This document shows, piece by piece, positions 36,214 through 63,718 of a stretch of DNA of 64,000 nucleotides (within the stretch, counting starts at the first letter, position 1; each line of letters begins with the position of its first letter). The notes under the pieces are model-generated. The model made no database searches and had not been told where the DNA came from. It worked only from the letters and a program-made list of their open reading frames with translations. Origin of the DNA: Kutzneria buriramensis (GTDB lineage Bacteria; Actinomycetota; Actinomycetes; Mycobacteriales; Pseudonocardiaceae); NCBI RefSeq assembly GCF_003387475.1, contig NZ_QUNO01000009.1:62001-126000 (forward strand), given 5' to 3'. Position numbers and translations under genes: made by a program.

Positions 36214-36268
36214 AAGGGAAGGCGGCGGCTTAGGAGCGGCCTCGCCCCGCCCGGAACGGGCGGCAAAA

Positions 36269-37378: not shown

Positions 37379-37438
37379 GGTGTTGTCTCCTGTCGGTGTG
37401 TGGACCAGGGGGAATCAGGGCCAAGGGGATCAGCGCGG

Positions 37439-48049: not shown

Positions 48050-48156
48050 CGCAACGATCCTCCCCAGTCGAAATGGCCCCCGAGTGAGAAATGGCCCAAT
48101 GTCCACCCTCGGCAATGGACCACGCTCTCGGCGCCCGCCGTTCCTACGCTTTCCCC

Positions 48157-49401
48157 ATGAGCACTCAACCCTTGTCAGCGAACGCCGACGCCCGGCGTGA
48201 CCGGAGCGCGAGGGCGGACGTGTCGGGAGTGTCGCCGCGGCTGACCCTGTTGATGGCGCTGGCGTGCGGCCTCATCGTGGCCAACATCTACTACGTGCAG
48301 CCGCTGCTGCCCGACCTCGCCGCCTCGTTCAGGGCCCCGACGGGAGTCGTCGGCCTGAGCGTGACCACCACCCAGCTGGGCTACGCGGCCGGTCTGGTGC
48401 TGCTGGTCCCATTGGGTGACCTGATGGCCAAGCGCCGCCTCGTGGTGGTGCTGCTGTGCGCCAGCGCCGTGGCGCTGGCCCTGACCGCGGTCGCCAACAG
48501 TCCGACGATGCTGCTGATCACGCTCGCCCTGGTGGGCCTGTCCAGCGTCGCGGTCAACGTCCTGATGCCGCTGGCGGCCACCCTGGCCGGCGACGGCCAG
48601 CGCGGCCGGGTCGTCGGCTCGCTGATGACCGGCCTGCTGCTGGGCGTCCTGCTGGCCCGGACGGTGTCCGGCGCGCTGGAGGAGATCGCCGGCTGGCACG
48701 CCGTGTTCGGGATCGCGGCGCTGGTGGAGGTGGTGTTGGCCGTGGTGCTGCGGCTGGCGCTGCCGGATCCGCCGGTCGCGCGCGGCCTGACGTATCCCCA
48801 ACTGCTCACCTCCATCACCCGTCTCGTGCGCGACGAGCCGTTTCTGCGCCGCCGCATGATGATAGGTGCGCTCGGGTTCGCCAGCTTCCAGCTGCTGTGG
48901 ACGTCACTGCCGTTCCTGCTGGCCGGCCCGCCCTATTCGTTCTCCACGGCGACCATCGGCTCCTTCGGCCTGATCGGCGCGGCCGGCGTGCTGTGCGCGC
49001 AGGCGGCCGGGCGGTTGCAGGACAAGGGCATGGCGCACGCCGCGACCGGCGTGTTCGCGCTGGTGCTGGGCGCGAGCTGGCTGCTGCTGGGCGGCGGCGC
49101 GGAGATGCTGCCGCTGCTGGTGATCGGCATCGTCGTGCTGGACATCGGCGTGCAGGGCCTGCACGTGATCAACCAGGGCCGGATCTACGCCTACGGCCCC
49201 TCGGTGAAGTCCCGCGTGACCACGGCGTACATGACGTCCTACTTCGTGGGCGGGTCGCTCGGCGGCGCGCTCGCGGTGACCCTCTACACCCGGTTCGGCT
49301 GGATCGGCGTCTGCGTGGCGGGCGGCGTGCTCTTCGCGCTCACCGGCATCCTCTGGCTGACCGACCGCACCAAGGCTCCCTCGCCGGAGCTGACCAAGTG
49401 A
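48157..49401 (+). CDS. MFS transporter
   Basis: The 414-residue protein has about twelve membrane segments and begins its first with ALACGLIVANIYYVQPLLPD, typical of the YnfM/AraJ-like drug efflux group; the loop motif appears as LGDLMAKRRLVVV. It is divergent from the MocR regulator and its stop overlaps a GTG of the next gene, so the pair forms an operon. Substrate unknown. Confidence 0.87.
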   Translation: MSTQPLSANADARRDRSARADVSGVSPRLTLLMALACGLIVANIYYVQPLLPDLAASFRAPTGVVGLSVTTTQLGYAAGLVLLVPLGDLMAKRRLVVVLLCASAVALALTAVANSPTMLLITLALVGLSSVAVNVLMPLAATLAGDGQRGRVVGSLMTGLLLGVLLARTVSGALEEIAGWHAVFGIAALVEVVLAVVLRLALPDPPVARGLTYPQLLTSITRLVRDEPFLRRRMMIGALGFASFQLLWTSLPFLLAGPPYSFSTATIGSFGLIGAAGVLCAQAAGRLQDKGMAHAATGVFALVLGASWLLLGGGAEMLPLLVIGIVVLDIGVQGLHVINQGRIYAYGPSVKSRVTTAYMTSYFVGGSLGGALAVTLYTRFGWIGVCVAGGVLFALTGILWLTDRTKAPSPELTK

Positions 49402-49421
49402 CCGAAAGGAGTGCATCCCCC

Positions 49422-50279
49422 ATGCGGGTCTTCGTCGCAGGCGCCAGCGGCGCCATCGGCCGGGTCCTCGTGCCCATGCTCATCGAGGCGGGCCACGAGG
49501 TGATCGGCACCTCCCGCACCACGGAGGGCCTGGACACGCTGCACGCGCAGGGCGCCGGGGCGGTCGAGCTGGACGTGTTCGACCGGGACGCGGTGTTCGC
49601 GGCGGTCCGGGACGCGGCGCCGGACGCCGTGATCCACCAGCTCACGGCGCTGTCGGGCGGCTCGTCCGCGGACAACGCCCGGATCCGCGAGACCGGCACC
49701 CGCAACCTGGTCGACGCGGCCAAGGCGGCGGGCGTGCGGCGGATCGTCGCCCAGTCCATCTCCTGGGCGTACGAGGCGGGCGACAAGCCGGCCACCGAGG
49801 ACGTCTCGCTCGACGTGACCGCCCCGGAACCCCGCTCGATCAGCATCAACGGCGTGCTCGCGCTGGAGCAGGCCGTCACGGAGATCCCCGAGCACGTCGT
49901 TCTCCGGTACGGCACGTTGTACGGCCCCGGCACCTGGTATGCGCCGGGCGCGTTGATGGCCAAGCAGCTGGAATCCGGCACGCTCAAGGCGACCGACGGG
50001 ATCAGCTCGTTCGTGGAGGTCTCGGACGCGGCGCGGGCGGCGGTGCTGGCACTGTCCTGGCCCAGCGGCGTGGTCAACGTCTGCGACGACGAACCGGCCA
50101 CCGGTCACGAGTGGGTTCCCGTCTTCGCGAAGGCGCTGGGCCTGCCCGCGCCGGAGCCGACGACCGGCCACGCCGGCTGGGAGCGCGGCGCGGACAGCTC
50201 GAAGGCCCGGTCCGAACTCGGCTGGGCGCCCCGATTCGCCTCCTGGCGGGCCGGTTTCGCCGCCTTCGCGGACGCGTAG
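49422..50279 (+). CDS. NAD(P)-dependent epimerase/dehydratase-family oxidoreductase
   Basis: The 285-residue protein begins MRVFVAGASGAIGRVLVPML (GxxGxxG nucleotide site) and has the fold of atypical short-chain dehydrogenases. The usual YxxxK active site is not clear (SISINGVLALEQ at that position). ATG 49422 has GAAAGGA 11 nt upstream; a GTG at 49398 that overlaps the transporter stop is an alternative. It is transcribed with the MFS gene and ends at a strong terminator. Confidence 0.82.
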   Translation: MRVFVAGASGAIGRVLVPMLIEAGHEVIGTSRTTEGLDTLHAQGAGAVELDVFDRDAVFAAVRDAAPDAVIHQLTALSGGSSADNARIRETGTRNLVDAAKAAGVRRIVAQSISWAYEAGDKPATEDVSLDVTAPEPRSISINGVLALEQAVTEIPEHVVLRYGTLYGPGTWYAPGALMAKQLESGTLKATDGISSFVEVSDAARAAVLALSWPSGVVNVCDDEPATGHEWVPVFAKALGLPAPEPTTGHAGWERGADSSKARSELGWAPRFASWRAGFAAFADA

Positions 50280-50500: not shown

Positions 50501-51562
50501 GTGGACCCACGCGCCAGCCAGCCGGCGTTCATCCCCGGCGCCGCCGAGCTGCTCGCCGAGGTCGAGGCGGCCGAGAGCCTGCTCGACCAGCGCGGGCCGG
50601 CCGGCGCCGCGGCCCCGGCCGGCGGCGAGGAGGCCGACCTTCTCGCGCACTTCGAGGCCGTGATCGCGGCGGACGCGAAGATCGAGCCCCGGGACTGGGT
50701 CCCGGCGGGATACCGCGAATCGCTCATTCGCCAGATCGCGCAGCACGCGCATTCCGAAATCGTCGGAATGCAGCCGGAATCGAATTGGATCACCCGGGCG
50801 CCGAGCCTGAAGCGCAAGGCCATCCTGTTGGCCAAGGTGCAGGACGAGGCCGGCCACGGGCTCTATCTGTACTCCGTCGCGGAAAGCCTCGGCGCGAATC
50901 GCGAGTCGCTGCTGACCGCGCTGCACGACGGCAAGCAGAAGTACCTCAACTTCATCAACTACCCCACGCTGACCTGGGGCGACGTGGGCGCGCTGGCCTG
51001 GCTCACCGACGGCGCCGCCGTGGTCAACCAGGTGCCGCTGTGCCGGTCGTCCTACGGCCCGTACGCCCGCGCGATGGTGCGGGTGTGCAAGGAGGAGAGC
51101 TTCCACCACCGGCAGGGGTTCGACCTGCTGTGGACGCTGTCCCAGGGCTCGCCGGCGCAGCACACCATGGCCCAGGAGGCGGTGAACCGGTGGTGGGGTC
51201 CGGCGCTGGCGATGTTCGGCCCGCCGCACCGCGACTCCACGCACAGCGAGAAGTCCATGGCCTGGCGGATCAAGCGGTTCACCAACGACGAGCTGCGCCA
51301 GCGCTTCGTGGACATCACCGTGCCGCAGGCGGAGATCCTCGGCCTCACGCTCCCGGATCCGGCTCTCGCCTGGAACTCCGAGCGCGGCCACTACGACTTC
51401 ACGCCGCCCGACTACGAGGAGCTCAAGCGGGTGGTGGCCGGCAACGGCCCGTGCAACCGGCAGCGGCTGGCCCGCCGCCGGCAGGCACACGAGCAGGGCG
51501 AATGGGTCCGCGCGGCGGCCGCCGCGCACGCCGCCAAGCACAGCAGGGAGGACGCGGCATGA
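50501..51562 (+). CDS. paaA: phenylacetyl-CoA epoxidase-type catalytic subunit (PaaA-like)
   Basis: The 353-residue ferritin-like protein carries the di-iron ligand motifs of Paa[21 protein letters not shown] (ExxH) and [11 protein letters not shown] (ExxH). PaaA is the oxygenase subunit that forms a ring 1,2-epoxide on an aryl-acyl-CoA. GTG 50501 has GGAG 7 nt upstream; the N-terminus is about 30 residues longer than usual (Ala/Gly-rich). It is first in a nine-gene operon whose other members point away from phenylacetate degradation. Confidence 0.92.
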
Positions 51563-51846
51563 GCCAGACCGAGTGGCCGCTGTGGGAGGTCTTCATCCGC
51601 GCCCGCCGCGGCCTGGGCCACCTGCACGTCGGCAGCCTGCGGGCGGCCGACACGACGATGGCCCTCCAGCACGCCCGCGACCTGTACACGCGGCGCGGCG
51701 AGGGCGTCTCCATCTGGGTGGTGCCGACCGACGCGATCGGCGCCAGCAGCCCGGACGAGAAGGACCCCCTGTTCGACCCGGCGATGGACAAGGTCTACCG
51801 CCTCCCGTCCTACTACCGGATGCCGGAAGGAGCTGAACGGCTGTGA
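51559..51846 (+). CDS. paaB: epoxidase subunit PaaB-like
   Basis: The 95-residue protein has the PaaB pattern [20 protein letters not shown], then [20 protein letters not shown]. PaaB is the small structural subunit joining the PaaAC complex. Its ATG overlaps the paaA stop, and its stop overlaps the paaC start (GTGA). Confidence 0.93.
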
Positions 51847-52580
51847 ACGAGAAGGCGGTGGCCTATGTGCTCCGGCTCGGCGACGACGCCCTCGTCGCCG
51901 CGCAGCGCATGGCCGCGCTGGCCACCTGGGCTCCGCAGTTGGAGGAAGACGTGGCACTGGCCAACATCGCCCTGGATCTGCTCGGCCAGGCCCGCGCGCT
52001 GCTGACGTACGCGGGCGAGCTGGAGGGCCAGGGGCGGGACGAGGATCTGCTGGCGTACCGGCGCGACGAGCACGAGTTCACCAGCGCGCTGCTGGTGGAG
52101 CAGCCGGACACCGACTTCGCCGCCACCATGGTGAAGCTGCTGTTCTTCAGCGCCTACCAGCGCCTGCTGTACGAGGAGCTCAGCGCCGGTGACGACGAGA
52201 CGCTGGCCGCCATCGCCGCGAAGTCGGTGAAGGAGGTGGCCTACCACCTGTCGCACGCCTGCGCCTGGACCGTTCGCCTGGGCGACGGCACCGAGGAGTC
52301 GAAGCGGCGGATGCAGACGGCGGTGGACGAGCTCTGGCCGTACACGCATGAGCTGTTCGCGTCGGACTCGGTGTGGCGGGGCTACGGCTTCGACCCGGCG
52401 GGCCTGCGGGAGCGGTGGCTGGGCATCGTCGAGCCGGTGCTGGCCGAGGCGACGCTGGAGCGGCCGGTCGACGACTGGGCTCCGACCGGCGGCCGCGACG
52501 GCCTGCACACCGAGCACTTCGGCTACCTGGTCGGCGAGATGCAGTCGCTGCACCGGGCGCACGAGGGGGTGAGCTGGTGA
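51843..52580 (+). CDS. paaC: epoxidase structural subunit PaaC-like
   Basis: The 245-residue ferritin-like subunit matches PaaC (LRLGDDALVAAQRMAALATW; EDVALANIALDLLGQARALL; YAGELEGQGRDEDLLAYRRD). PaaC is structurally like PaaA but binds no active di-iron centre and forms the core of the complex. GTG 51843 overlaps paaB. Confidence 0.93.
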   Translation: MNEKAVAYVLRLGDDALVAAQRMAALATWAPQLEEDVALANIALDLLGQARALLTYAGELEGQGRDEDLLAYRRDEHEFTSALLVEQPDTDFAATMVKLLFFSAYQRLLYEELSAGDDETLAAIAAKSVKEVAYHLSHACAWTVRLGDGTEESKRRMQTAVDELWPYTHELFASDSVWRGYGFDPAGLRERWLGIVEPVLAEATLERPVDDWAPTGGRDGLHTEHFGYLVGEMQSLHRAHEGVSW

Positions 52581-53071
52581 ACGCCACCGCCCGCTTACGC
52601 GCCGCCGTCGCCACCGTGCGGGATCCGGAGATCCGCGTGCTGACGGTCGAGGAGCTGGGCATCGTCCGGGACGTCGACGCCGAAGGCAGCCGCCCCACGG
52701 TGACCGTGACGCCGACCTACGTGGGCTGCCCGGCGATGGACCTCATCCGGTCCGACATCGCCGCCGCGGCAAGGGACGCCGGCTTCCCGGACGTCGAGGT
52801 CCGCACGGTGCTGTCGCCGGCGTGGACGACGGACTGGCTGTCGGACGAGGCCCGCGCGAAGCTCGTCGGCGCCGGGATCACGCCGCCGGCGTGCCGGGCC
52901 GAGGGCCGGGTGTTGCTGCCGCTGATGGTGTTGTCGCCGCCGAAGCCGCGCTGTCCCCGGTGCGGGGCGGCCGACACCGACGAGGTCAGCCGTTTCGGTT
53001 CCACCGCCTGCAAGTCCCTGTGGCGCTGCAACAGCTGCCGCGAACCCTTCGAGCAGATGAAGGAGCACTGA
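52577..53071 (+). CDS. paaD: PaaD-like Fe-S/maturation factor
   Basis: The 164-residue DUF59/MIP18-type protein has PEIRVLTVEELGIVRDV, a conserved Cys in TPTYVGCPAMDLI, and a C-terminal zinc-ribbon-like pair CPRCGAAD and CNSCREPF. PaaD is thought to help assemble the iron centres of the epoxidase system. Codon 7 is TTA (52595-52597), which would make its translation depend on the bldA tRNA. GTG 52577 overlaps paaC and the stop overlaps paaE. Confidence 0.92.
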   Translation: MNATARLRAAVATVRDPEIRVLTVEELGIVRDVDAEGSRPTVTVTPTYVGCPAMDLIRSDIAAAARDAGFPDVEVRTVLSPAWTTDWLSDEARAKLVGAGITPPACRAEGRVLLPLMVLSPPKPRCPRCGAADTDEVSRFGSTACKSLWRCNSCREPFEQMKEH

Positions 53072-54177
53072 TGAGCGTCATCGCCGAACCCAGCCGACCG
53101 CGCTCGCGGGTCGCCTTCCACCAGCTCAAGGTCGCGTCGGTGCTGCCGGCCTGCGACGACGGGTCCGCGGTCGTGGTCTCGCTGCGGGTGCCGGTGGAAC
53201 TGCGGCCGACCTTCGACTTCGTACCCGGCCAGCACGTGACCGTGCGGGCGACCATCGCCGACGAGGAAGTCCGCCGGTCGTACTCGCTGTGCTCCACGCC
53301 GTCCGACCTGAGCGACGAAGGCGTGCTGCGCATCGGCGTCCGGGCCGTGCCCGACGGCGTCTTCTCCACGTACGCCTGCACCTCGCTGGCCGCCGGCGAC
53401 ACGCTGGATGTGCTGGCGCCCCTGGGTTCCTTCACCACCGCCGTGCGTGCCGAGCGCCGCCGCCACTACGGCGCGGTCGTCGCCGGCTCCGGCATCACGC
53501 CGGTGCTGTCGCTGGTGGCGTCGGTGCTGGCGGTGGAGCCGCAGAGCACGTTCACCGTGGTGTACGGCAACCGGTTCGCCCGCTCGACGATGTTCGTCGA
53601 CGAGCTCGCCGACCTCAAGGACCGCTACGGCGCCCGGTTCCAGCTGGTGTACGCGTTCTCCGGCGAGGACCAGCGCGAGGGCCTGGACCGCGGCCGCCTC
53701 GACGCCGAGACGCTGGCCAAGGTCGGCAGCCGGGTCTTCCCGATGGACATGATCGACGAGTGGTTCCTGTGCGGGCCGGTCGGCCTGGTCACGGGCACCC
53801 AGGACATGCTGACGGCGCTGGGCGTGGATCCCGAGTCCGTCCACAGTGAACTGTTCTACGTCGGCGAGGCCCCGCCGCCGCGCGTGTCCACGGAGGCGGC
53901 GAGCGGCGTCCTCACCGTGATGCTGGAGGGCCGGGCCTCGACCGTGCCCGTCGCCAAGGGCCAGAACCTGTTGCAGGCGGCCCGCGCCGCCCGCCCCGAG
54001 GTGCCTTTCTCGTGCAGCACCGGCGTGTGCGGCACGTGCCGCGCCAAGGTGTTGCACGGCCGGACGGAAATGACCGGGAACTGGGCGCTGAGCGCCGCCG
54101 AGGTGGCCGCCGGACAGGTCCTGACCTGCCGCTCCACCGCCGAGACCGACGACGTCACCCTCGACTTCGATCTGTAG
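53071..54177 (+). CDS. paaE: epoxidase reductase PaaE-like
   Basis: The 368-residue reductase has a flavin domain (VRRSYSLCSTPSDLSDEGVL), NADP domain (AGSGITPVLSLVASVLAVEP) and a C-terminal 2Fe-2S domain (FSCSTGVCGTCRAKVLHG). It supplies electrons from NADPH to PaaABC. It starts at the paaD stop. Presence of all five paaABCDE-type genes argues that the epoxidase is functional. Confidence 0.94.
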   Translation: MSVIAEPSRPRSRVAFHQLKVASVLPACDDGSAVVVSLRVPVELRPTFDFVPGQHVTVRATIADEEVRRSYSLCSTPSDLSDEGVLRIGVRAVPDGVFSTYACTSLAAGDTLDVLAPLGSFTTAVRAERRRHYGAVVAGSGITPVLSLVASVLAVEPQSTFTVVYGNRFARSTMFVDELADLKDRYGARFQLVYAFSGEDQREGLDRGRLDAETLAKVGSRVFPMDMIDEWFLCGPVGLVTGTQDMLTALGVDPESVHSELFYVGEAPPPRVSTEAASGVLTVMLEGRASTVPVAKGQNLLQAARAARPEVPFSCSTGVCGTCRAKVLHGRTEMTGNWALSAAEVAAGQVLTCRSTAETDDVTLDFDL

Positions 54178-54255
54178 AAACCATTTCTCCCATTTTCTTG
54201 TCGGGCCGACGTGTGTCCGCTTCCTCCCCTCCACCAGAGAGCAGGTGTGTTTGCT

Positions 54256-55803
54256 ATGGCCTCCAAGGGCTTCTACATCGGCCTGATGTTCGACGAGGCG
54301 GCCCGCGCCCACGGCGACGCCCCCGTGCACCTCGACCAGCCGCTCCAACTGGCCCCCGAGGACGGGACGAGCCTGACCGTGCAGGCGCTGGCCGACCACG
54401 TGCGCCGCCTGGCCGCGAAGCTGCACGGCGCCGGTATCCGCCGCGGCGACCGCGTCGCCATCTACAAGACCAACAACTTCGACATCGCGCTGCTGGCCGG
54501 GGCCGTGCAGCGGATCGGCGCGGTGCCGGCGCTGCTGTCGCCGATGCTGGACGGCCCGACCGTCAACCAGCTGTTACGCCGCATGGGCGAGCCGGCGCTG
54601 ATCACCGACCGCGCCAAACTGGAGGCCGTGCCGCTGGACCTGACGGCCGCCAGCAAGGTGCTGCTGTCCGCCGGCGACCAACTGCCCGGCACCCTGTCGC
54701 TGAACTGGTACAACAGCGCGCCCGAGCCGGAGCCGGTGGTCCCGGAGCCGACCGAGCCGGCGTTCATCTCGCACACTTCCGGCACCACCGGCCTGCCCAA
54801 GCTGGTCGTGCAGACGCCGGACGCGCTGTGGCAGCGGCTGCGGGTGCAGAAGCTGGTGGCCGGCCGCACCTGGCGCCGCGAGAGCGTCGCGCTGTGCATC
54901 AGCTTCGTGCACGCCCGCTTCTACAGTGCCCTGCACATGGGCATGTCCTACGGCAAGCCGCTGCTGATCTCCGTGAGCACCGACACCGACGTGGTCGGCC
55001 CGATGTTCGCCGCGCACCGCCCCGGCGTGATCGAGACCCAGCCCAACACGTTCGTGGCCTGGGAGGTGCTGGCCGACGCCGAGGGCCAGCCGCTGTCCAA
55101 CGTCCGCTACTACAGCGCCACCTTCGACGCCGTCCACCCGCGGACCGTCGAGACCCTGCTCGGCGCCTCGAAGCGGGCCCGCCCGCTGTTCTTCCAGCTC
55201 TACGGCCAGACCGAGACCGGCCCGGTGACCGGCACCTGGATCACCAGGCGCAGTCTGGCCACAATGGACGGCCGCTGCGTCGGCTGGGCGCTGCCGGGCA
55301 CCATCAGGCTGCGCGTGGTCGACGCCGACGGCAACCGCTGCAAGCCCGGCCAGGTCGGCTACATCGAGGTCCGCAGCCGCACCCGGGCGATCACCTACCT
55401 CGGCGAGGACATCCGGTTCCGCGACCAGCTCACCGACGGCTGGTGGCGGATGGGCGACGTCGGCTTCACCGACCGGCTGCGCCGGGTGCACCTGCTGGAC
55501 CGCGAGATCGACCAGATCGACGCCACCGACAGCACCCTGGAGCTGGAGGACGAGCTGATGTCCGCGCTGCCCGAACTGCGCGAGATCGTCATCGTCGCCG
55601 ACGCCGACGGCAAGGCGCTGCCGGTGGTGTGCACCCGTGACGACGTCCCGCTCGACCCCGAGCGCTGGGCCGCCGCGACCGCGGACATGCCGCTGGCCGC
55701 CCCCAGGCAGATGCGCTTCGACGAGCTGCCGATGACCGCCACCTGGAAGATCCGCCGCCCGGAGCTGATCCGGCGGCTCCAGGAGGAGGGCGTCAATGCC
55801 TGA
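54256..55803 (+). CDS. acyl-activating enzyme (AMP-dependent ligase) 1
   Basis: The 515-residue ANL enzyme has the P-loop SHTSGTTGLPKLV, motif QLYGQTETGPVTG, and GWWRMGDVGFTD with a C-terminal subdomain ending MTATWKIRRPELI (catalytic Lys). The substrate is not predictable; fatty acids and aryl acids are both possible. Codon 107 is TTA (54574-54576). It follows paaE by 78 bp, and its stop overlaps the thioesterase start by 8 nt. Confidence 0.87.
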   Translation: MASKGFYIGLMFDEAARAHGDAPVHLDQPLQLAPEDGTSLTVQALADHVRRLAAKLHGAGIRRGDRVAIYKTNNFDIALLAGAVQRIGAVPALLSPMLDGPTVNQLLRRMGEPALITDRAKLEAVPLDLTAASKVLLSAGDQLPGTLSLNWYNSAPEPEPVVPEPTEPAFISHTSGTTGLPKLVVQTPDALWQRLRVQKLVAGRTWRRESVALCISFVHARFYSALHMGMSYGKPLLISVSTDTDVVGPMFAAHRPGVIETQPNTFVAWEVLADAEGQPLSNVRYYSATFDAVHPRTVETLLGASKRARPLFFQLYGQTETGPVTGTWITRRSLATMDGRCVGWALPGTIRLRVVDADGNRCKPGQVGYIEVRSRTRAITYLGEDIRFRDQLTDGWWRMGDVGFTDRLRRVHLLDREIDQIDATDSTLELEDELMSALPELREIVIVADADGKALPVVCTRDDVPLDPERWAAATADMPLAAPRQMRFDELPMTATWKIRRPELIRRLQEEGVNA

Positions 55804-56215
55804 GCTCACGATGGTGCCGGCCGGCGAACTCGAGACGGCGATGGGCATCGAGGTGCTGGAGGCGACGCCGCAGCGGGTCGTCGGCAGCATCCCGGTGGCC
55901 GGCAACACCCAGCCGTTCGGCGTGCTGCACGGCGGCGCCTCCTGCGTGCTGGCCGAGACCCTGGCTTCCGTCGGCGCGTGTCTCCACTTCGGACAGTACG
56001 ACCGGATCGCCGTCGGCGCCGAGATCAACGCCACGCACCACGCCCCGGCCCGGGGCGGCCGCGTCACCGGCGTCGCCACCGCCGTGCACCTCGGCCGCCG
56101 CCTGGCCAGCTACGAGATCGTGCTCACCGACGAGAACGGCCGCCGCATCTGCACCGCGCGGATGACCGCCGCGAGCGTGGCAACTTCCCGCGGGTCCACA
56201 AAGGAGGAACGATGA
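55796..56215 (+). CDS. PaaI-like hot-dog thioesterase
   Basis: The 139-residue protein has the PaaI active-site pattern GVLHGGASCVLAETLASVGA and GAEINATHHAPARGGRVTG. PaaI-type thioesterases hydrolyse CoA esters of ring-epoxidised or dead-end intermediates; in tropone/tropolone pathways such enzymes release products diverted from the Paa route. Its start and stop overlap both neighbouring ligase genes. Confidence 0.9.
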   Translation: MPELTMVPAGELETAMGIEVLEATPQRVVGSIPVAGNTQPFGVLHGGASCVLAETLASVGACLHFGQYDRIAVGAEINATHHAPARGGRVTGVATAVHLGRRLASYEIVLTDENGRRICTARMTAASVATSRGSTKEER

Positions 56216-57858
56216 CCACGTCATCCCTGTGGCCGCCGGGGTCGGCGGTGCTGTCCAAGTCGGCGCACGTCGACACCTTCAGCCGCCGGGGCCTGCCGCC
56301 GGCCGAACTCTGGCCGACGATGGTGTTCGACCTGCCCAAGCTGCGCTACCCGATCCGGCTCAACAGCGCGGAGTCGCTGCTGGACCACACGATCAAGCGG
56401 CTCGGCGGCAGCCGGCCCTGCCTGTACGACGGCGTCGGCACGATGTGGACGTACGCGCAGCTGGCCGACCTGGCCAACCGGATCTCCTGGGTGCTGGTGG
56501 ACGACCTCGGCGTCGTCTCCGGCAACCGGATCCTCCTGCGCGGCCCCAACTCCCCCTGGCTGGCGGCGTGCTGGCTGGCCGCGCTCAAGGTGGGCGCGGT
56601 CGCGGTGACCACCTCCCCGATGCTGCGGGCCGGCGAGCTGCGCACCTGCGCGGAGATGGCCGACGTCGACCTCGTGCTGTGCGACGAGCGGTACGTCACC
56701 GAGCTGGAGCGGGCCGGCCTGGAGAACGTCCGGACGATCACCTACGGCACCGGCGCCGACGCGGAGCTGGCCTGGTACGCGGTGGACAAGCCCGCGGAGT
56801 TCCCGGCCGTGCTGACCGCCGCCGACGACGTGGCGCTGATCGGCTTCACCTCCGGAACCACCGGCAAGCCCAAGGCCACCATGCACTTCCACCGGGACGT
56901 GCTGGCCATCGCCGACACGTTCTCCGAGCACATCCTCAAGCCCGGCCCGGACGACGTGTTCGCGGGCAGCCCCTCGCTGGCCTTCACCTTCGGCCTCGGC
57001 GGCCTGCTGGTCTTCCCGCTGCGCGCCGGCGCGTCGACCGTGCTGATGGAGAAGCCCTCCCCCGACGAGCTGTTCGGCCGGCTGCGGGAACTCAACGCCA
57101 GCATACTGTTCAGCGCCCCCACCGCCTACCGCTCCGCCCTCAACCGCATCGACGACTTCGACTTCAGCTCGCTGCGCCGCTGCGTGTCCGCCGGCGAGGC
57201 GCTGTCCGGCCAGACGTGGCACGCCTTCCGCGAGGCCACCGGCCACCGGCTGATCGACGGCATCGGCTCCACCGAGATGCTGCACGTGTTCGTGTCCGAA
57301 TGCGACAGTGGCATCCGGCCCGGCGCAACCGGCCGTCCGGTGCCCGGTTACCAGGCGACAATCCTTGACCAGGACGGGAATCCGGTGGAACCTGGCACTG
57401 CGGGTCGGCTCGCGGTGCGCGGTCCGACGGGTTGCCGCTACCTCAACGACGACCGGCAGCTGACGTACGTGCAGGGCGGCTGGAACGTCACCGGCGACAC
57501 GTACATCCGGGACGAGGACGGCTACTTCTGGTATCAGGCGCGGTCCGACGACCTGATCGTGTCCTCCGGCTACAACATCGCCGCTCCGGAGGTCGAGGAG
57601 GCGCTGGCCCGGCACGCCGACGTCGTGGAGTGCGGCGTGGTGGGCGTCCCCGACGAGGCGCGCGGCGCGATCGTCAAGGCCTACGTGGTGCTCGCCTCCG
57701 GCGTGCCGACCACCGAGCAGACCGCGCACGAGCTCCAGGACTTCGTGAAGCAGCAGATCGCCCCCTACAAGTACCCGCGCTCCATCGAGTTCGTGACCGA
57801 GCTTCCCCACACCCACAACGGGAAGCTGCGCCGGTCGGAGCTCCGCCGATCCGCCTGA
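56212..57858 (+). CDS. 2-aminobenzoate/benzoate-CoA ligase-like enzyme
   Basis: The 548-residue ANL ligase has FTSGTTGKPKATMHFHRDVL, GIGSTEMLHVFVS, and a C-terminal domain with RSDDLIVSSGYNIAAPEVEE and the lysine in THNGKLRRSEL. The HFHRD and GSTEMLH motifs are those of the benzoate-CoA and 2-aminobenzoate-CoA ligase subgroup. With an anthranilate synthase 1.7 kb downstream, anthranilate is the leading substrate, giving anthraniloyl-CoA for the PaaABCE-type epoxidase. ATG 56212 overlaps the thioesterase by 4 nt. Confidence 0.85.
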   Translation: MTTSSLWPPGSAVLSKSAHVDTFSRRGLPPAELWPTMVFDLPKLRYPIRLNSAESLLDHTIKRLGGSRPCLYDGVGTMWTYAQLADLANRISWVLVDDLGVVSGNRILLRGPNSPWLAACWLAALKVGAVAVTTSPMLRAGELRTCAEMADVDLVLCDERYVTELERAGLENVRTITYGTGADAELAWYAVDKPAEFPAVLTAADDVALIGFTSGTTGKPKATMHFHRDVLAIADTFSEHILKPGPDDVFAGSPSLAFTFGLGGLLVFPLRAGASTVLMEKPSPDELFGRLRELNASILFSAPTAYRSALNRIDDFDFSSLRRCVSAGEALSGQTWHAFREATGHRLIDGIGSTEMLHVFVSECDSGIRPGATGRPVPGYQATILDQDGNPVEPGTAGRLAVRGPTGCRYLNDDRQLTYVQGGWNVTGDTYIRDEDGYFWYQARSDDLIVSSGYNIAAPEVEEALARHADVVECGVVGVPDEARGAIVKAYVVLASGVPTTEQTAHELQDFVKQQIAPYKYPRSIEFVTELPHTHNGKLRRSELRRSA

Positions 57859-57892
57859 CCACCCACAACGAAGAGAAAGTTCTGGTGCCATC

Positions 57893-59434
57893 ATGGATCG
57901 AAGGTCTTTCCTGCGCGCAGGCGCCGGCACGGCGGCCATCGCCGCCGCCGGACTCGCGGTCGGAGCGGCCGCAAGCGCGTCGCCCTGGCCGTCCTCGCTG
58001 TCCGCCGCGAAGTGGGACCGGCTGCGCGCGAACCTGCACGGCCGGCTGCTGCTGCCCAGCGACGCCCCGTACGACGAGGCCCGCAAGCTGGCCGCGGCCC
58101 AGTTCGACAGCATCTACCCGCAGGCCGTCGCCCAGTGCACCGATCCCCGTGACGTCGCCACCTGCATCAAGTTCGCGCAGGACAACAACCTCGCCAGCGC
58201 GGTGCGCAGCGGCGGCCACAACTTCCTCGGCTGGTCCACGTCCGAGGGCCTGGTCATCGACGTGTCGACGATCAACCACGTGAAGATCGGCCGGAACTCG
58301 GTGCACCTGGGCCCCGGCGCGCAGGCCGTGGACGTGGCCAGCACCATCGCCCCGCACGGCCTGTCCGTGCCGGCCGGCTTCTGCGCCACGGTCTGCCCCG
58401 GCGGCTTCGTCACCGGCGGCGGCATGGGTTGGCAGTTCCGCAAGTACGGGCCGGCCTGCGACCGCCTGCTGTCGGCCAAGGTCGTGCTGGCCGACGGCCG
58501 CCTGGTCACGGCGTCGGAGCACGAGAACGCCGACCTCTACTGGGCGCTGCGCGGTGGCGGCGGCGGCAACTTCGGCGTGGTCGTGGACTTCGAGATGAAC
58601 CCGACCAACATCACCCACGTCGGCTACTGGACGCTGACCTGGCCGTTCCCGATCGCCGACCACGTGCTGCACAGCTTCCAGGAGTGGTCGGCCAACGCCT
58701 CCCTGGACCTCGCACCGCGGGCCGGCATCCTGCTCAACAACGCCGACCCCGGCGCCAAGCCGGTCGTCATCGTCACGGGTGTGCACTTCGGCGACGCCGC
58801 CGCGCTGGACGCCGACCTCAACCAGCTGGTGAGCCTGGTCGGCAGCGCGCCGGCCACCCGCGTGGTCGACCAGCTGTCCTACCAGCAGGCCCTGATGCGG
58901 CAGTTCGGCTGCGAGAACGACTCGGTGGAGCAGTGCCACCTGCTGGGCACCGACCCGGAGGCCATCCTGCCGCGGCAGGCGTTCGTGCTGAACCGGACCC
59001 GCATGTTCGACCAGGCCATCCCCGAGACCGGCTTCGCCGAGATCGCCGAGGCCTTTGACGCCGACCGCCGCACCGGCCAGTACCGCTGGCTGGGCTTCCT
59101 CGCCCTGGGCGGCAACGCCAGCAACCCGGCCCCCGGCGACACCGCGTACGTGCACCGCAAGGCCCAGCTGTTCTCCGTGTTCACCGCCGGCCTCGTGCTG
59201 CCCAACCCGACCGCCGACGACAACACCGCGGCCGTGAACTGGGCGCGCGGCGGCTTCAACGCCATCGACAAGTACTCCAACGGCCACACCTACGTGAACT
59301 ACCCGGACATCGAGCTGTCCGACTACGCCAACGCCTACTACGGCTCGAACCTGCCGCGCCTGTCCGCGGTGAAGCGGCACTTCGACCCGCACGGGTTCTT
59401 CAAGCTGCCGCAGGGCATCCGCGCCCACGCCTGA
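57893..59434 (+). CDS. Tat-exported berberine-bridge-type FAD oxidase
   Basis: The 513-residue protein begins with a twin-arginine signal (MDRRSFLRAGAGTAA). It has an FAD domain with H109 in SGGHNFLGW and C164 in GFCATVCPGG, the two positions for bicovalent flavin in berberine-bridge enzymes, and a C-terminal YxN motif region (THVNYPD-like, YVNYPDIELSDYANAYYGSN). Such oxidases in bacterial clusters aromatise or oxidise late intermediates, sometimes outside the cytoplasm. It follows the ligase by 34 bp and ends at a strong terminator. Confidence 0.9.
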   Translation: MDRRSFLRAGAGTAAIAAAGLAVGAAASASPWPSSLSAAKWDRLRANLHGRLLLPSDAPYDEARKLAAAQFDSIYPQAVAQCTDPRDVATCIKFAQDNNLASAVRSGGHNFLGWSTSEGLVIDVSTINHVKIGRNSVHLGPGAQAVDVASTIAPHGLSVPAGFCATVCPGGFVTGGGMGWQFRKYGPACDRLLSAKVVLADGRLVTASEHENADLYWALRGGGGGNFGVVVDFEMNPTNITHVGYWTLTWPFPIADHVLHSFQEWSANASLDLAPRAGILLNNADPGAKPVVIVTGVHFGDAAALDADLNQLVSLVGSAPATRVVDQLSYQQALMRQFGCENDSVEQCHLLGTDPEAILPRQAFVLNRTRMFDQAIPETGFAEIAEAFDADRRTGQYRWLGFLALGGNASNPAPGDTAYVHRKAQLFSVFTAGLVLPNPTADDNTAAVNWARGGFNAIDKYSNGHTYVNYPDIELSDYANAYYGSNLPRLSAVKRHFDPHGFFKLPQGIRAHA

Positions 59435-59445
59435 CCGTCACACCC

Positions 59446-59484
59446 GGTGTCCCCGCCGTCGAGGCGGCGGCGGGGACACCTTTT
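59446..59484 (+). terminator. terminator of the paaABCDE-type operon
   Basis: GGTGTCCCCGCCG pairs perfectly with CGGCGGGGACACC (13 bp, 9-nt loop) and is followed by TTTTCT. It separates the epoxidase operon from the anthranilate synthase gene. Confidence 0.88.
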
Positions 59485-59520
59485 CTCGAAGTCGTCTGGG
59501 GTTCTGAGGGGAGCTGTGTG

Positions 59521-61683
59521 ATGTCCGTACTGGACGAAGTCGGCCTGGGTCGCGCCGAGTGGTGGGCCACCCCGGTCGGCGTCCGGGTCGCCAGATCGAC
59601 CGACCTGGTCGGCACCGCGGTCGGGGCGCGGGCCGTGCTGGAGCGGTCGCTGGACAGCCGTCGCGGCATGCTGATCTTCCGGGGGGACGATTACGCGATC
59701 GGCTACACCGACCCGCCGGTCGAGGTGACGGTCGGCGGCGGCCGGCTCGCGGTGCGGGCGCTCAACGAGCGCGGCCGGATCCTGCTGCCGGCGCTGCGCG
59801 CCGGCGTCGCCGAGATGCTGGAGTTCGATGCCGACACCGACGCCGAGTTCGCCGGCGCCGTCGCCGCCCATCCCGGCGTGTTCGCCGAGGAGGACCGCAC
59901 CCGCTACGCCGGCGTGTTCCGGGCGCTGCGGGCCGTGGTGGCCGGCATGTCCTCGCCGGACGAGCTGCTCGGCCTGTACGGCGCGTTCGGCTACGACCTG
60001 ATCTTCGAGGTGGACCCGATCCCGTTGGCGCAGCGGCGCGCGGCCGACCACCGCGACCTGGTGCTGCACCTGCCGGACGAGATCGTGGAGATGGACTTCG
60101 CCCGCGACGAGGCGGTCCGGCACTGCTACGAATTCGTGGTCGACGGCCGCAGCACCGCCTGGTGCGACGGCGCCACCGAGTCCCGCGAGTTCGTGCCCGG
60201 CGAGCCGTCGGACGCCCGCGACCACCGGACCGGCGAGTACGCCGCGGTGGTCGAGAAGGCGATGCCGATGTTCCGCAACGGCGAGCTGTTCGAGGTGGTG
60301 CCCAGCCAGGTCTTCCGCCGCCCCTGCACGAGCTCGCCGGCCGAGCTGTTCCGGCGGCTGCGCGACACCAACCCCGCCCCGCACAGCCTGCTGGCCAACC
60401 TCGGCGACGGCGAGTACCTGGTCGGCGCGTCGCCGGAGATGTTCGTCGGCGTCGTCCGGGACCGCGACGGCGGCCTGCTCGTGCGGACCTCGCCGATCAG
60501 CGGCACCATCGCCCGCGGCAAGGACGCGCTCCAGGACGCCGACCGCATCAAGGAGCTGCTCAACTCGGCCAAGGACGAGTCCGAGCTGACCATGTGCACG
60601 GACGTGGACCGCAACGACAAGGCCCGGGTGTGCGTGCCGGGCACGGTCCGGGTGACCGCCCGCCGCAAGATCGAGATGTACTCGGCGCTGATCCACACCG
60701 TGGACCACGTGGAGGGCCGGCTGCGGCCGGACCGCGATGCGCTGGACGCCTTCCTCGCCCACCTGTGGGCCGTCACGGTGACGGGCGCGCCGAAGCTGGC
60801 GGCGGTGGAGTTCATCGAGCAGACCGAGCGCTCGCCGCGGCGGTGGTACGGCGGCGCGGTCGGCCGCATCGGCTTCGACGGCACCCTCGACACGGTGCTG
60901 ACCCTGCGCACCATGCAGATCCACCACGGCGTCGCCTCGGTACGGGCCGGCGCGACCCTGCTGTACGACTCCGACCCGGCCGCCGAGGAGGCCGAGACCG
61001 AGCTGAAGGCCAAGGCCCTGCTGCGGGTGCTGGACGACCCGGCCGCCGCCGCGCCGCCGCCGTCCGAAGTGGACAAGCCGGGCGCGGGCCTGCGCTTCCT
61101 GCTGGTGGACCACCGCGACTCGTTCGTGCACTGCCTGGCCGACTACCTGCGGCAGACCGGCGCCGAGGTGGTGACCTACCGGGCCGGCAGCCACCTGGAC
61201 ATGATCGACGCCGAGCGGCCGGACCTGGTGGTGCTGTCCCCCGGCCCGGGCCGGCCGGCCGACTTCGACCTGTCCGCCACCATCGACCGGGCCGAGTCGC
61301 TGGGCATCCCCGTCTTCGGCGTCTGCCTTGGCCTGCAAGGGATCGTCGAGCACTACGAGGGCACGCTGAGCATCCTGGACCGTCCGGTGCACGGCAAGCA
61401 GTCGATGGTCCGGGTAACCGCGGACAGCCCGCTGTTCGACGGCCTCCCGGCGGAGTTCGCCGTCGGCCGCTACCACTCGCTGTACGCCGCGCCGGGCGCG
61501 GTGTCCGGCGGCCTGGACGTCGTGGCCGCGACCAAGGACGGCGTGGTCATGGCCGTTACCCACCGGACCCGCGCGTTCGCCGCGGTCCAGTTCCACCCGG
61601 AGTCGATCATGTCCGCGACCGGCGGGGTCGGCCTGACCCTGATCAACAACGTGGTCGCCGCGCTCGTGCGCAAGCCCGCCTGA
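59521..61683 (+). CDS. fused anthranilate synthase TrpE(G)-type
   Basis: The 720-residue protein joins a chorismate-binding TrpE domain (FEVVPSQVFRRP; TSPISGTIARGKD; DVDRNDKARVC) to a C-terminal glutamine amidotransferase (FGVCLGLQGIVEHYEG with the catalytic Cys, FHPESIMS with His-Glu). Length and the N-terminal LDSRRGMLIF segment fit TrpE(G) fusions such as those of rhizobia rather than the shorter PhzE. It should make anthranilate; 2-amino-2-deoxyisochorismate cannot be excluded. ATG 59521 follows AGGGGAG. It starts its own transcript after the terminator. Confidence 0.88.
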   Translation: MSVLDEVGLGRAEWWATPVGVRVARSTDLVGTAVGARAVLERSLDSRRGMLIFRGDDYAIGYTDPPVEVTVGGGRLAVRALNERGRILLPALRAGVAEMLEFDADTDAEFAGAVAAHPGVFAEEDRTRYAGVFRALRAVVAGMSSPDELLGLYGAFGYDLIFEVDPIPLAQRRAADHRDLVLHLPDEIVEMDFARDEAVRHCYEFVVDGRSTAWCDGATESREFVPGEPSDARDHRTGEYAAVVEKAMPMFRNGELFEVVPSQVFRRPCTSSPAELFRRLRDTNPAPHSLLANLGDGEYLVGASPEMFVGVVRDRDGGLLVRTSPISGTIARGKDALQDADRIKELLNSAKDESELTMCTDVDRNDKARVCVPGTVRVTARRKIEMYSALIHTVDHVEGRLRPDRDALDAFLAHLWAVTVTGAPKLAAVEFIEQTERSPRRWYGGAVGRIGFDGTLDTVLTLRTMQIHHGVASVRAGATLLYDSDPAAEEAETELKAKALLRVLDDPAAAAPPPSEVDKPGAGLRFLLVDHRDSFVHCLADYLRQTGAEVVTYRAGSHLDMIDAERPDLVVLSPGPGRPADFDLSATIDRAESLGIPVFGVCLGLQGIVEHYEGTLSILDRPVHGKQSMVRVTADSPLFDGLPAEFAVGRYHSLYAAPGAVSGGLDVVAATKDGVVMAVTHRTRAFAAVQFHPESIMSATGGVGLTLINNVVAALVRKPA

Positions 61684-61718
61684 TCCCTGCACCCACGCCA
61701 GCTAAGGACGGACCAGTC

Positions 61719-63053
61719 ATGACCATCACCGATCTCTCCGTGCGGCGGACGTGGCGCAGCCTGCCGGCGGCGCAGCAGCCCGAGTGGCCGGACCCGGTGG
61801 CCCTGCGCAACGTGCTCGACGAGCTCCGGTCGTACCCGCCACTGGTGTTCGCCAGCGAATGCGACCAGTTACGCGAGCGCATGGCAGCGGTGGCCCGCGG
61901 CGAGGCCTTCCTGCTCCAGGGCGGCGACTGCGCGGAGACCTTCGGCGGCGTCTCGGTCGAGCAGATCCGCAACAAGTTCAAGACCCTGCTCCAGATGTCG
62001 CTGGTGCTGACGTACGCGGCGTCCATGCCGGTGGTCAAGGTGGGGCGGATGGCCGGCCAGTACGCCAAGCCGCGCTCCAAGCCCACCGAGACCATCGACG
62101 GCGTGACGCTGCCCAGCTACCGGGGCGACTCCGTGAACGGGTTCGAGTTCACCCCGCACGCGCGGACCCCGGACCCCGAGCGCCTCAAGCGGGCGTACCA
62201 CACCTCGTCGGCGACCCTGAACGTGATCCGCGCGCTCATCTCCAGCGGGTACGCCGACCTGCGGCAGCTCCAGACCTGGAACCAGGACCACGTCGAGCTG
62301 TCGCCGTCCGGCCGCCGCTACGAGCGGCTGGCCCGGGACATCGACAAGGCGCTCCAGTTCAGCCGCGGCTTCGGCATCGACAGCGAGGCGGCCCGCTCGG
62401 TCGAGTTCTTCACCAGCCACGAGGCGCTGCTGCTGGACTACGAGGACGCGCTCACCCGCCCTGACGTGATCACCGGCGAGCTCTACGACCTGTCCGCGCA
62501 CATGGTGTGGATCGGCGAGCGCACCCGCCAGCTCGACGGGGCGCACGTCGAGTTCTTCGCCAAGCTGCGCAACCCGATCGGCGTCAAGCTCGGCCCCACC
62601 TGCACCGCCGACGAGGCGCTGGCGCTGATCGACCGGCTCGACCCGGACCGCGAGCCCGGCCGGCTCACGTTCACCACCCGGATGGGCGCGGGCAAGGTCC
62701 GCGACCTGCTGCCCACCCTGGTGGAGAAGGTGTCCGCGTCCGGCGCGCAGGTGGTGTGGCAGTGCGATCCCATGCACGGCAACACCATCTCCGCGCCCAG
62801 CGGCCACAAGACGCGCCTGTTCGACGACGTCGTCGACGAGGTCACCGGCTTCTTCGAGGTGCACCGCGCGCTGGGCACCGTGCCCGGCGGCGTGCACATC
62901 GAGGTCACCGGCGAGGACGTCACCGAGTGCGTCGGGGCCGGCACCACCAACGACGACCTGCCGCTGCGGTACGAGACCACGTGCGACCCGCGGCTGAACC
63001 GCAGCCAGGCCCTCGACCTGGCGTTCCTCATCGCGGAGCTCTACCACAGGTGA
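61719..63053 (+). CDS. class II DAHP synthase
   Basis: The 444-residue plant-type 3-deoxy-7-phosphoheptulosonate synthase has FLLQGGDCAETF, GRMAGQYAKPRS, and WQCDPMHGNTISAPSGHKTR. It starts the shikimate pathway; a cluster-borne copy next to anthranilate synthase raises flux to chorismate. Codon 51 is TTA (61869-61871), unusual for a housekeeping gene and consistent with secondary metabolism. It lies 35 bp after the anthranilate synthase gene and ends at a long hairpin. Confidence 0.93.
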   Translation: MTITDLSVRRTWRSLPAAQQPEWPDPVALRNVLDELRSYPPLVFASECDQLRERMAAVARGEAFLLQGGDCAETFGGVSVEQIRNKFKTLLQMSLVLTYAASMPVVKVGRMAGQYAKPRSKPTETIDGVTLPSYRGDSVNGFEFTPHARTPDPERLKRAYHTSSATLNVIRALISSGYADLRQLQTWNQDHVELSPSGRRYERLARDIDKALQFSRGFGIDSEAARSVEFFTSHEALLLDYEDALTRPDVITGELYDLSAHMVWIGERTRQLDGAHVEFFAKLRNPIGVKLGPTCTADEALALIDRLDPDREPGRLTFTTRMGAGKVRDLLPTLVEKVSASGAQVVWQCDPMHGNTISAPSGHKTRLFDDVVDEVTGFFEVHRALGTVPGGVHIEVTGEDVTECVGAGTTNDDLPLRYETTCDPRLNRSQALDLAFLIAELYHR

Positions 63054-63063
63054 CCTCGATCCG

Positions 63064-63100
63064 GGTGGCCGCGACCAGCTTCGGGCTGGTCGCGGCCACC
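63064..63100. terminator. perfect 16-bp stem hairpin after DAHP synthase
   Basis: GGTGGCCGCGACCAGC pairs with its exact complement across a TTCGG loop, 10 bp after the DAHP synthase stop. There is no U-tract. It separates that gene from the next methyltransferase. Confidence 0.8.
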
Positions 63101-63118
63101 CCTCTAGGGTTGACCGTC

Positions 63119-63718
63119 GTGGACGACACCAGGGCCGCCTACGACGCCGTCGCACCTGTCTACGCCGAACTCTTCAGCGACATGCTCGCCACGCTCCCGA
63201 TGGAACGGGCGCTGCTCGCCGCGTTCGCGGAACTCGTGACCGGACCGGTCGCGGACATCGGCTGCGGTCCCGGCCAGGTGACGGCCCACCTGCACTCACT
63301 GGGCCTCACCGCCTTCGGCATCGACCTGTCCCCGTCCATGATCGCGCTGGCCCGGGAGGCGCATCCCGATCTGAGGTTCGAGGAGGGATCGATGACCGCC
63401 CTGGACCTCGCCGACGGAGTTCTCGGCGGCATTCTGGCCTTCTACTCCGTCATCCACCTGCCACCCCGGCTGCTGCCGGCCGTGTTCGCCGAGTTCCGGC
63501 GGGTGCTGGCGCCGGGCGGCCACCTGCTGCTCGGGTTCTTCGCCGGCGACGACCCGCTGCCGCAGGAGTTCGACCACAAGGTCACCCTCGCCTACCGATG
63601 GTCGCCCGACACCCTCGCGGACCTGTTGCGCCGGGCCGGTTTCGCCGAGGTGGCCCGGATGGTGCGAGCCCCGCACGAGGGCGAGCGGTTCCAGCAGGCC
63701 TGCCTGCTGGTCAGCTGA
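63119..63718 (+). CDS. class I SAM-dependent methyltransferase
   Basis: The 199-residue methyltransferase has motif I in PVADIGCGPGQVTAHLHSLG, the acidic loop GIDLSPSMIALA, and FRRVLAPGGHLLLGFF. GTG 63119 is inferred, as VDDTRAAYDAVAPVYAELF is a typical N-terminus; no strong ribosome site is seen, and the hairpin just upstream suggests an independent transcript. It may tailor the anthranilate-derived product or be unrelated. Its stop overlaps the convergent gene by 8 bp. Confidence 0.83.
   Translation: MDDTRAAYDAVAPVYAELFSDMLATLPMERALLAAFAELVTGPVADIGCGPGQVTAHLHSLGLTAFGIDLSPSMIALAREAHPDLRFEEGSMTALDLADGVLGGILAFYSVIHLPPRLLPAVFAEFRRVLAPGGHLLLGFFAGDDPLPQEFDHKVTLAYRWSPDTLADLLRRAGFAEVARMVRAPHEGERFQQACLLVS

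Follow-up and report, generated by a model that had tools for sequence, protein, structure and literature searches.

We analysed a 64,000-nucleotide stretch of the Kutzneria buriramensis genome, here called the window (bases 62001-126000 of contig C9, 71% G+C, in a genome of 11.97 Mb and 65 contigs), in which genes for a relative of the phenylacetyl-CoA epoxidase lie beside genes for anthranilate synthesis and for a probable diazotase. Genes were labelled by NCBIfam model scores, set against the model cut-offs, and by Pfam domains. Twelve genes follow one another on the (+) strand at 50501-63718 with intergenic gaps of -8 to +83 bp, and 50501-63053 is one tight (+) operon. It opens with paaA (50501..51562; TIGR02156 463.2 bits, cut-off 280) for the catalytic di-iron epoxidase subunit, paaB (51559..51846; TIGR02157 123.8 bits, cut-off 85.45), paaC (51843..52580; TIGR02158 255 bits, cut-off 133.35), paaD (52577..53071; TIGR02159 183.6 bits, cut-off 108.15) and the reductase gene paaE (53071..54177; TIGR02160 379.3 bits, under the cut-off of 420.8). 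Next come lig1 (54256..55803), for an ANL enzyme that is probably an ATP-dependent arylamine diazotase (nearest to Tri17 by sequence and to CmaA6 by fold, and clustered with CreE/CreD in two Streptomyces copies); a gene for an EntH/MenI-like hotdog thioesterase with a 4HBT Pfam domain, a candidate 3-aminosalicyl-CoA hydrolase (55796..56215); lig2 (56248..57858), for an anthranilate/benzoate-type CoA ligase; a gene for a BBE-type FAD oxidase with FAD_binding_4 and BBE domains (57893..59434); the gene of a fused anthranilate synthase, TrpEG (59518..61683); and that of a class II 3-deoxy-D-arabino-heptulosonate 7-phosphate synthase (DAHPS, 61719..63053; 701.9 bits against 614.7). A class I methyltransferase gene, named from Pfam (63050..63718), overlaps the DAHPS gene by 4 bp.

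The first-pass annotation, made from the letters of the sequence, had listed paaABCDE, a PaaI-like thioesterase, a 2-aminobenzoate-type CoA ligase, a BBE-type oxidase, TrpE(G) and a class II DAHPS. NCBIfam and Pfam support these labels, apart from the PaaI likeness of the thioesterase and from PaaE, which falls short of its cut-off; the annotation had left out lig1 and had let the unit start at paaA. The conserved unit begins upstream, at 46631-50279. There a MocR/PdxR-type regulator gene (46631..48049, (-) strand; NCBIfam PdxR 370.9 bits against 320) diverges from the gene of a major facilitator superfamily (MFS) transporter, a probable exporter (48229..49401, (+) strand), which is followed by the gene of an AvaA7-like NAD(P)-dependent reductase, a candidate diazo-removing enzyme (49422..50279, (+) strand). 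The end of the reductase gene lies 221 bp before the start of paaA.

The same cluster was found in two Streptomyces strains. When the lig2 relatives of named genomes were scanned, one locus among the best 80 of 583, in Streptomyces sp. JHD 1 (L136), had paaA-E, lig1, the thioesterase, TrpEG and DAHPS. Plasmids searched with lig1 yielded 31 records, of which the best, a linear plasmid of 88 kb from Streptomyces sp. NBC_00388 (L259), carries the same genes as the window cluster, the BBE oxidase included (59% identity), and is complete except for the methyltransferase. Common to the window, JHD 1 (L136, L260) and NBC_00388 are the MocR regulator, MFS transporter, AvaA7-like reductase, paaA-E, lig1, thioesterase, lig2, TrpEG and DAHPS genes. 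Identities to the window proteins in the two Streptomyces copies were 62/65% for lig1, 69/65% for the thioesterase, 64/64% for lig2, 65/68% for TrpEG and 59/67% for DAHPS, and the MFS homologues were 58% and 61% identical. Reading of most of the JHD 1 contig, up to its last 8.6 kb, showed no BBE gene, and a relative at 35% lies on another JHD 1 contig; the methyltransferase had no match in L136, L259, L260 or L261. Searches for further copies with lig1 covered 298 genomes of the order, 394 of the class, 7 of the own genus and 392 of Streptomyces (3-5 candidates scored per genome in the order, class and Streptomyces searches, neighbours read for fetched loci only) and gave no match above 56% identity besides the window's own, against 62-65% in the cluster copies.

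The paaA gene has a GTG start and encodes about 49 aa ahead of the family domain, its TIGR02156 match running from residue 51. PaaA, PaaB, PaaC and PaaD score over the NCBIfam equivalog cut-offs and PaaE scores under its own, and on the PaaE score the set is classed as a relative of the phenylacetyl-CoA epoxidase family and is not filed as phenylacetyl-CoA epoxidase. A second paaA-E set, separate from the window, lies on contig C5 (PaaA 509.7 bits against 280) together with PaaZ (1022.4 bits, cut-off 562.8) and with PaaG-like (210.1 against 345.15), PaaH-like (202 against 669.4) and PaaJ-like (530.1 against 597) proteins, the last three all under cut-off. The PaaA-E proteins of the two sets are homologous, with 70% identity for PaaA and 46% for PaaC, but the window is without the rest: tblastn with the C5 PaaZ and the PaaG-, PaaH- and PaaJ-like proteins (E 1e-4) gave no match there, while PaaK, the phenylacetate ligase, was not searched for. 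The earlier statements that paaG, paaZ, paaH and paaJ are missing from the window, and that no full paa set adjoins, thus hold, the other set with PaaZ being on C5, and the arrangement of a Paa catabolic operon, with paaZ, G, H and J beside paaA-E, is not seen in the window. Orthology of the window and C5 sets was considered and rejected by a constrained grouping in an approximately unbiased (AU) test (p 1.7e-7; constrained trees in these tests were built with the fast option, L259 left out).

Where the window epoxidase falls within its family was read from PaaA+PaaC trees, for which 81 loci with both proteins were reduced to 71 after removal of identical PaaC; one tree had 71 sequences (without NBC_00388) and a second had 72 (with it). 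The window clade has eight members, namely the window, JHD 1, NBC_00388 (in the second tree) and five sequences of one family (L116, L117, L122, L123 and L066), with ultrafast bootstrap (UFBoot) support of 94 and 88 in the two trees, respectively. Eight PaaA changes are fixed in 8/8 members: S105L, I107F, F108I, I121L, G122A, V125T, Q159H and E164D. All but E164D occur in none of the 63 other PaaA, E. coli among these; E164D occurs in 3. We used E. coli PaaA numbering, taken as the chain index minus 2, which places Phe108, Lys68, Glu72 and Asp126 as in PMC4498308. According to that paper, in the part available, Phe108 sets the orientation of the phenylacetyl ring above the di-iron site, Glu49, Lys68, Glu72 and Asp126 make up the lysine bridge, and PaaA is described as specific, with benzoyl-CoA inhibiting PaaABCE. 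Position 108 is Ile in all clade members and Phe in 63/63 others and 2/2 antimycin-type (Ant-type) PaaA. The lysine bridge is identical in 8/8 members, and the iron residues are kept in the window PaaA. Because Phe108 is lost while the lysine bridge is kept, a changed substrate is likely for PaaA of the window clade.

The genes around the epoxidase indicate what this substrate may be. The ANTHRANILATE supply genes are represented by TrpEG in the window, JHD 1 and NBC_00388; the window TrpEG passes two NCBIfam cut-offs (939.3 against 645 and 884.9 against 739.15). A tryptophan 2,3-dioxygenase-like gene adjoins the epoxidase in L116 and L117, and both Ant-type loci (L124 and L126) also have a dioxygenase-like gene; the L117 and L124 proteins match that NCBIfam model alone, under its cut-off (258.3 and 317.4 against 390.7). 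In the 15 remaining paa loci, TrpEG, the dioxygenase or kynureninase was found over 60 bits in none, one weak match scoring 46.6 bits. For lig2, the best NCBIfam model is the benzoate-CoA ligase family (342.9 bits, under 375.25), and the nearest PDB entry is the anthranilate-CoA ligase 4wv3 (276.7 bits), with benzoate-CoA ligase at 264.3. Taken together with the changed pocket, these sequence comparisons support anthraniloyl-CoA, already proposed in the first-pass annotation, which we consider the likely substrate of the window epoxidase. The related proposal that the paa genes had been rewired to anthranilate also stands, with TrpEG and DAHPS kept in 3/3 clusters, Phe108 lost and a separate set with PaaZ on C5.

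The thioesterase had been called PaaI-like. That role was rejected, as the PaaI model gives 30.7 bits against a cut-off of 118.9, and the best models are EntH (97.7 bits), hotdog (90.7) and MenI (89.8). The BBE oxidase has EncM among its best PDB matches, and its N-terminus looks twin-arginine-like by eye.

In the product of lig1 the terminal lysine of ANL enzymes is retained as K498, a residue that is the same in all 12 sequences compared. Among PDB sequences the two Tri17 entries match it best (105 bits), followed by CmaA6 (8ztz, 96.8) and a FadD (94.8). In its predicted structure (mean pLDDT, the predicted local distance difference test, 85.9) the nearest solved fold is that of the diazotase CmaA6 (8ztz; E 8.3e-29, TMq 0.83). 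A midpoint-rooted ANL tree of 18 proteins, with no amide synthetase included, joined the lig1 group to a CmaA6-like protein of C5 with support of 100; lig2, a ligase of the AntF type and three further ligases lay outside this grouping. The lig1 protein and the C5 protein are only 27% identical. Around relatives of lig1, 30 loci were fetched (some of them adjacent pairs): five have PhzE-like and isochorismatase-like genes, ten a pabAB-like gene and five a gene like that of a type III polyketide synthase (PKS), and none has a PaaA match above 200 bits. These labels were given by reading and tblastn; one pabAB-like protein passed the pabB model, and the scanned PhzE-like and isochorismatase-like proteins passed no model. 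The loci of the PhzE/isochorismatase type resemble the published penzonemycin (pzm) cluster, whose Pzm18 is given as 48% identical to CreM in the available part of PMC9323291. On these comparisons lig1 probably diazotises its arylamine substrate.

The reductase at 49422-50279 has the 3-diazoavenalumate denitrifying reductase (AvaA7, NF058621) as its best NCBIfam model, the next model reaching 49.3 bits. As a control, a C5 paralogue that is 40% identical scores 466.8 bits. The reductase is 69% identical in JHD 1 and 63% in NBC_00388, and the MocR homologues (58% and 64%, respectively) are divergent from the MFS and AvaA7-like genes each time. AvaA7 strips N2 from the aryl diazo acid 3-diazoavenalumate with NADPH, as described in the available text of PMC10777205. 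We lean towards self-protection, over salicylate formation, as the function of the constant MocR/MFS/reductase module.

A diazotase of this kind would use nitrite. Both Streptomyces copies have CreD, whose scores on the nitrosuccinate lyase model are 741 and 762.6 bits (cut-off 650), and CreE, the two CreE proteins being 64% identical to one another. At E 1e-10 the JHD 1 CreE matches a single PDB entry, 8cp2, which is mentioned in a paper on L-aspartate N-hydroxylase (PMC10404684, available in part), and CreE and CreD turn aspartate into nitrous acid in cremeomycin biosynthesis according to the text available of PMC11705231. Elsewhere in the Kutzneria genome, both CreE and CreD are encoded by a cma-like cluster of C5; C24 encodes another CreE, and C5 a further, more distant one. 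The frame of the C5 CreE is open, and a TGA sits just upstream of the open frame.

From the gene content, the conservation in three genomes, the clade with its residue changes and the predicted fold of lig1, we infer every reaction of the following scheme. DAHPS and TrpEG would supply anthranilate, and lig2 would convert it to anthraniloyl-CoA. The specialised PaaABC(D)E would then epoxidise C2-C3, and the amino group would migrate by a 1,2-shift to give 3-aminosalicyl-CoA. Given anthraniloyl-CoA as the substrate, this product is probable by analogy: AntHIJKL is reported to take anthraniloyl-S-AntG to 3-aminosalicylate by a 1,2-shift, proposed to go via an epoxide (PMC3869250, in the part available). 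The thioesterase would release free 3-aminosalicylate, and lig1, acting like CreM with ATP and nitrite, would convert it to 3-diazosalicylate, an o-diazoquinone equal to cremeomycin without the methoxy group. The CreM substrate is 3-amino-2-hydroxy-4-methoxybenzoate (PMC11705231, same partial text); the predicted intermediate fits lig1 because this is 3-aminosalicylate plus a methoxy group. The presence of lig1 and of the AvaA7-like gene suggests that an o-aminophenol acid, for instance 3-aminosalicylate, is diazotised. Nitrite would come from CreE/CreD, which the two Streptomyces copies encode within the cluster and Kutzneria at other places of its genome. N2 would be removed by the AvaA7-like reductase, most likely to protect the host, with the MFS transporter sharing in this, or otherwise to yield salicylate in a last step. 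We give about even chances to this explanation as a whole, that is, to a dedicated biosynthetic cluster at about 46.6-63.7 kb that makes 3-diazosalicylate from anthranilate and whose reductase most likely protects the host.

Several results weigh against this scheme. In two members of the window clade, L122 and L123, neither TrpEG nor the tryptophan dioxygenase was found within 20 kb. The lead of anthranilate over benzoate in the lig2 matches is slight. Ant-type PaaA share G122A, V125T and E164D with the window clade and retain Phe108, so their pocket changes differ from those of the clade. The runner-up fold for lig1 is an amide synthetase (E 1.0e-28), a very small margin, and CreE and/or CreD were found in only 7/30 lig1-relative loci. 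As an AvaA6 equivalog lig1 was rejected (97.8 bits against a cut-off of 975, the C5 control protein reaching 1065.5); no CreM model came up in the NCBIfam scans, and this score rules out the AvaA6 branch only. The AvaA7-like reductase reaches 216.8 bits against a cut-off of 400. Contig C9 has no CreE/CreD match and therefore nitrite must be supplied in trans, and the C5 CreD, at 586.9 bits, lies under the lyase cut-off of 650.

The same route could run to 3-diazosalicylate with the AvaA7-like enzyme as a biosynthetic one, N2 loss giving salicylate that the BBE oxidase and methyltransferase tailor. The AvaA7-like gene is present in 3/3 clusters, and the denitrification of 3-diazoavenalumate by AvaA7 with NADPH (PMC10777205, in part), with the diazotisation-dependent deamination of the ava/cma clusters, would serve as a model. 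The AvaA7 cut-off is missed by all three proteins, though (216.8, 205 and 207.4 bits), and in 3/3 clusters the MFS gene and divergent MocR gene adjoin the reductase gene, a layout also suiting detoxification. Salicylate is also reachable by simpler routes. We regard this ending as rather unlikely.

An extension of the 3-diazosalicylate scheme is held just as tentatively. Here the clade PaaABCE would move the amine of anthraniloyl-CoA from C2 to C3 and hydroxylate C2, the resulting 3-aminosalicylate would be diazotised, and the diazonium would couple with a product of the 3-amino-4-hydroxybenzoate (3,4-AHBA) type, made by genes at 36-38 kb, to an azo or hydrazone conjugate finished by an exported BBE oxidase; L116 and L117 would belong to a wider anthraniloyl-CoA epoxidase family.

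Less probable still is that lig1 acts as a ligase that forms an amide or ester between 3-aminosalicylate and a partner, for example the 3,4-AHBA-type product, with no diazo chemistry here. Amide bond synthetases stand directly below CmaA6 in the fold ranking, the window contig is without a CreE/CreD match, and 3,4-AHBA-type genes lie nearby (36-38 kb); this has to be set against the CreE/CreD genes that both Streptomyces copies carry, the absence of 3,4-AHBA genes from the DNA fetched for them, and the AvaA7-like gene in 3/3 clusters. Ring expansion of epoxidised anthraniloyl-CoA to an aminotropone or azepine-like scaffold, the product suggested in the first-pass annotation, now looks very improbable: the paa pathway does convert its epoxide to an oxepin by isomerisation, with a later intermediate as the source of tropones (PMC8283759, in the available text), but the window has no homologue of the C5 PaaZ or PaaG-like protein, a thioesterase and a diazotase-like enzyme are present instead, and the AntHIJKL precedent gives 3-aminosalicylate. 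Of the marks of tropone/tropolone pathways, ring opening of the PaaZ/ECH type and a TdaE-type flavoenzyme, the search covered the first and found no PaaZ homologue. Equally improbable is a catabolic detour, the aerobic CoA-dependent breakdown of anthranilate or benzoate, since the operon's own anthranilate and DAHP synthases suggest that anthranilate is produced, not consumed, and no PaaZ, PaaH or PaaJ homologue was found in the window, even though many lig2 relatives among the best 80 of 583 lie in apparently catabolic loci. The loci of 53 of these 80 contain a member of the bifunctional salicylyl-CoA 5-hydroxylase/oxidoreductase family, which includes 2-aminobenzoyl-CoA monooxygenase/reductase.

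Among known systems, antimycin biosynthesis (antFGHIJKLN) also has a five-subunit oxygenase of the Paa type that forms 3-aminosalicylate from an anthraniloyl thioester, as proposed for the window. Ant-type PaaA+C fell outside the window clade, yet a joint clade was not rejected (AU p 0.193), by which orthology of the window set to AntHIJKL is neither shown nor rejected. In antimycin the substrate is tethered to a carrier protein and supplied by tryptophan and kynurenine, whereas the window has a CoA ligase and TrpEG; the Ant-type locus L124 has a carrier protein and dioxygenase beside the oxygenase, and the window does not, no carrier-protein-sized gene having been called in 46.6-63.7 kb (gene calls of at least 70 codons). 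The cremeomycin (cre) and pzm clusters share CreE/CreD, in the Streptomyces copies only, and a CreM-like ANL enzyme. As far as the available texts go, the aminophenol acid comes from 3,4-AHBA (CreH/CreI) in cre and from 3-hydroxyanthranilate in pzm (PMC9323291), whereas that of the window would come from anthranilate via a CoA-dependent epoxidase. The ava/cma clusters likewise have a diazotase-like enzyme and an AvaA7-like reductase, but the window cluster is without their type II PKS.

All the enzyme kinds have been described before; their combination, the clade of the epoxidase and a route that starts from anthranilate and yields an o-aminophenol acid to be diazotised appear new, on the weak evidence that no paper on this combination was found in the open-licence PMC literature. 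If true, the scheme joins Paa-type arene epoxidases with enzymatic diazotisation, fields not linked in the literature found, and predicts a PaaABCE clade with anthraniloyl-CoA as the substrate and the residues named. It would also offer a CoA-soluble, assayable version of antimycin's odd 1,2-amino shift, make the NBC_00388 plasmid a named cluster in which to seek a reactive diazo metabolite, and raise the question of whether the AvaA7-like reductase protects the host or makes salicylate.

Other loci came to light beside these. The cma-like cluster at C5:148000-170000 (L273, L274) has a CmaA6-like diazotase (1065.5 bits against 975), an AvaA7-type reductase (466.8 against 400), CreE, CreD (586.9 against 650), a GriI-type gene and, by reading, ketosynthase/chain-length-factor- and carrier-protein-like genes. 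A penzonemycin-like set at C24:60000-100000 (L046, L047) comprises PhzE-, isochorismatase-, short-chain dehydrogenase/reductase (SDR)- and DAHPS-like genes, CreE, an SRPBCC protein and a lig1 relative. L124 and L126 served as antimycin-type reference loci, and L124 reads as ligase, carrier protein, paaA-E-like genes, SDR, tryptophan dioxygenase, hydrolase and kynureninase. In L117 there are a ligase gene and genes resembling those of tryptophan dioxygenase, arylamine N-acetyltransferase and molybdopterin oxidoreductase, and L122 and L123 have this set minus the dioxygenase (names mostly by reading); the actinomycete loci L116, L117, L122 and L123 may possibly encode other pathways that use anthranilate or a related aryl-CoA. 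Genes downstream in L006 (ATP-grasp, RidA-like and a Cys/Met-type pyridoxal phosphate (PLP) enzyme) were considered as cluster members, and no link was seen.

Within the window, 34819-38254 on the (-) strand holds an aspartate kinase gene, a GriH-type gene (36269-37378) and a GriI-type gene (37439-38254), a 3-amino-4-hydroxybenzoate-type module that is 51-52% identical to the module in the C5 cma-like cluster and had no counterpart in the DNA fetched for the Streptomyces cluster copies. A Rieske oxygenase gene follows the GriI-type gene at 38621 (+). The (-) strand at 24277-30868 encodes an AMP-ligase, an acyl-CoA dehydrogenase, transglutaminase-like and PLP (PALP) enzymes and, in place of a carrier protein, a 94-aa protein with no Pfam match. 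The region 10204-16576, (+) with one (-) gene interrupting, encodes an FAD monooxygenase, an AMP-ligase, a cupin, a fumarylacetoacetate (FAA) hydrolase and a maleylpyruvate isomerase-like protein and resembles an aromatic acid degradation region. Finally, a ScbA/BarX-type gamma-butyrolactone synthase is encoded at 42416-43357 (-) (308.1 against 200 bits), and its product is a possible signal for the neighbouring clusters.

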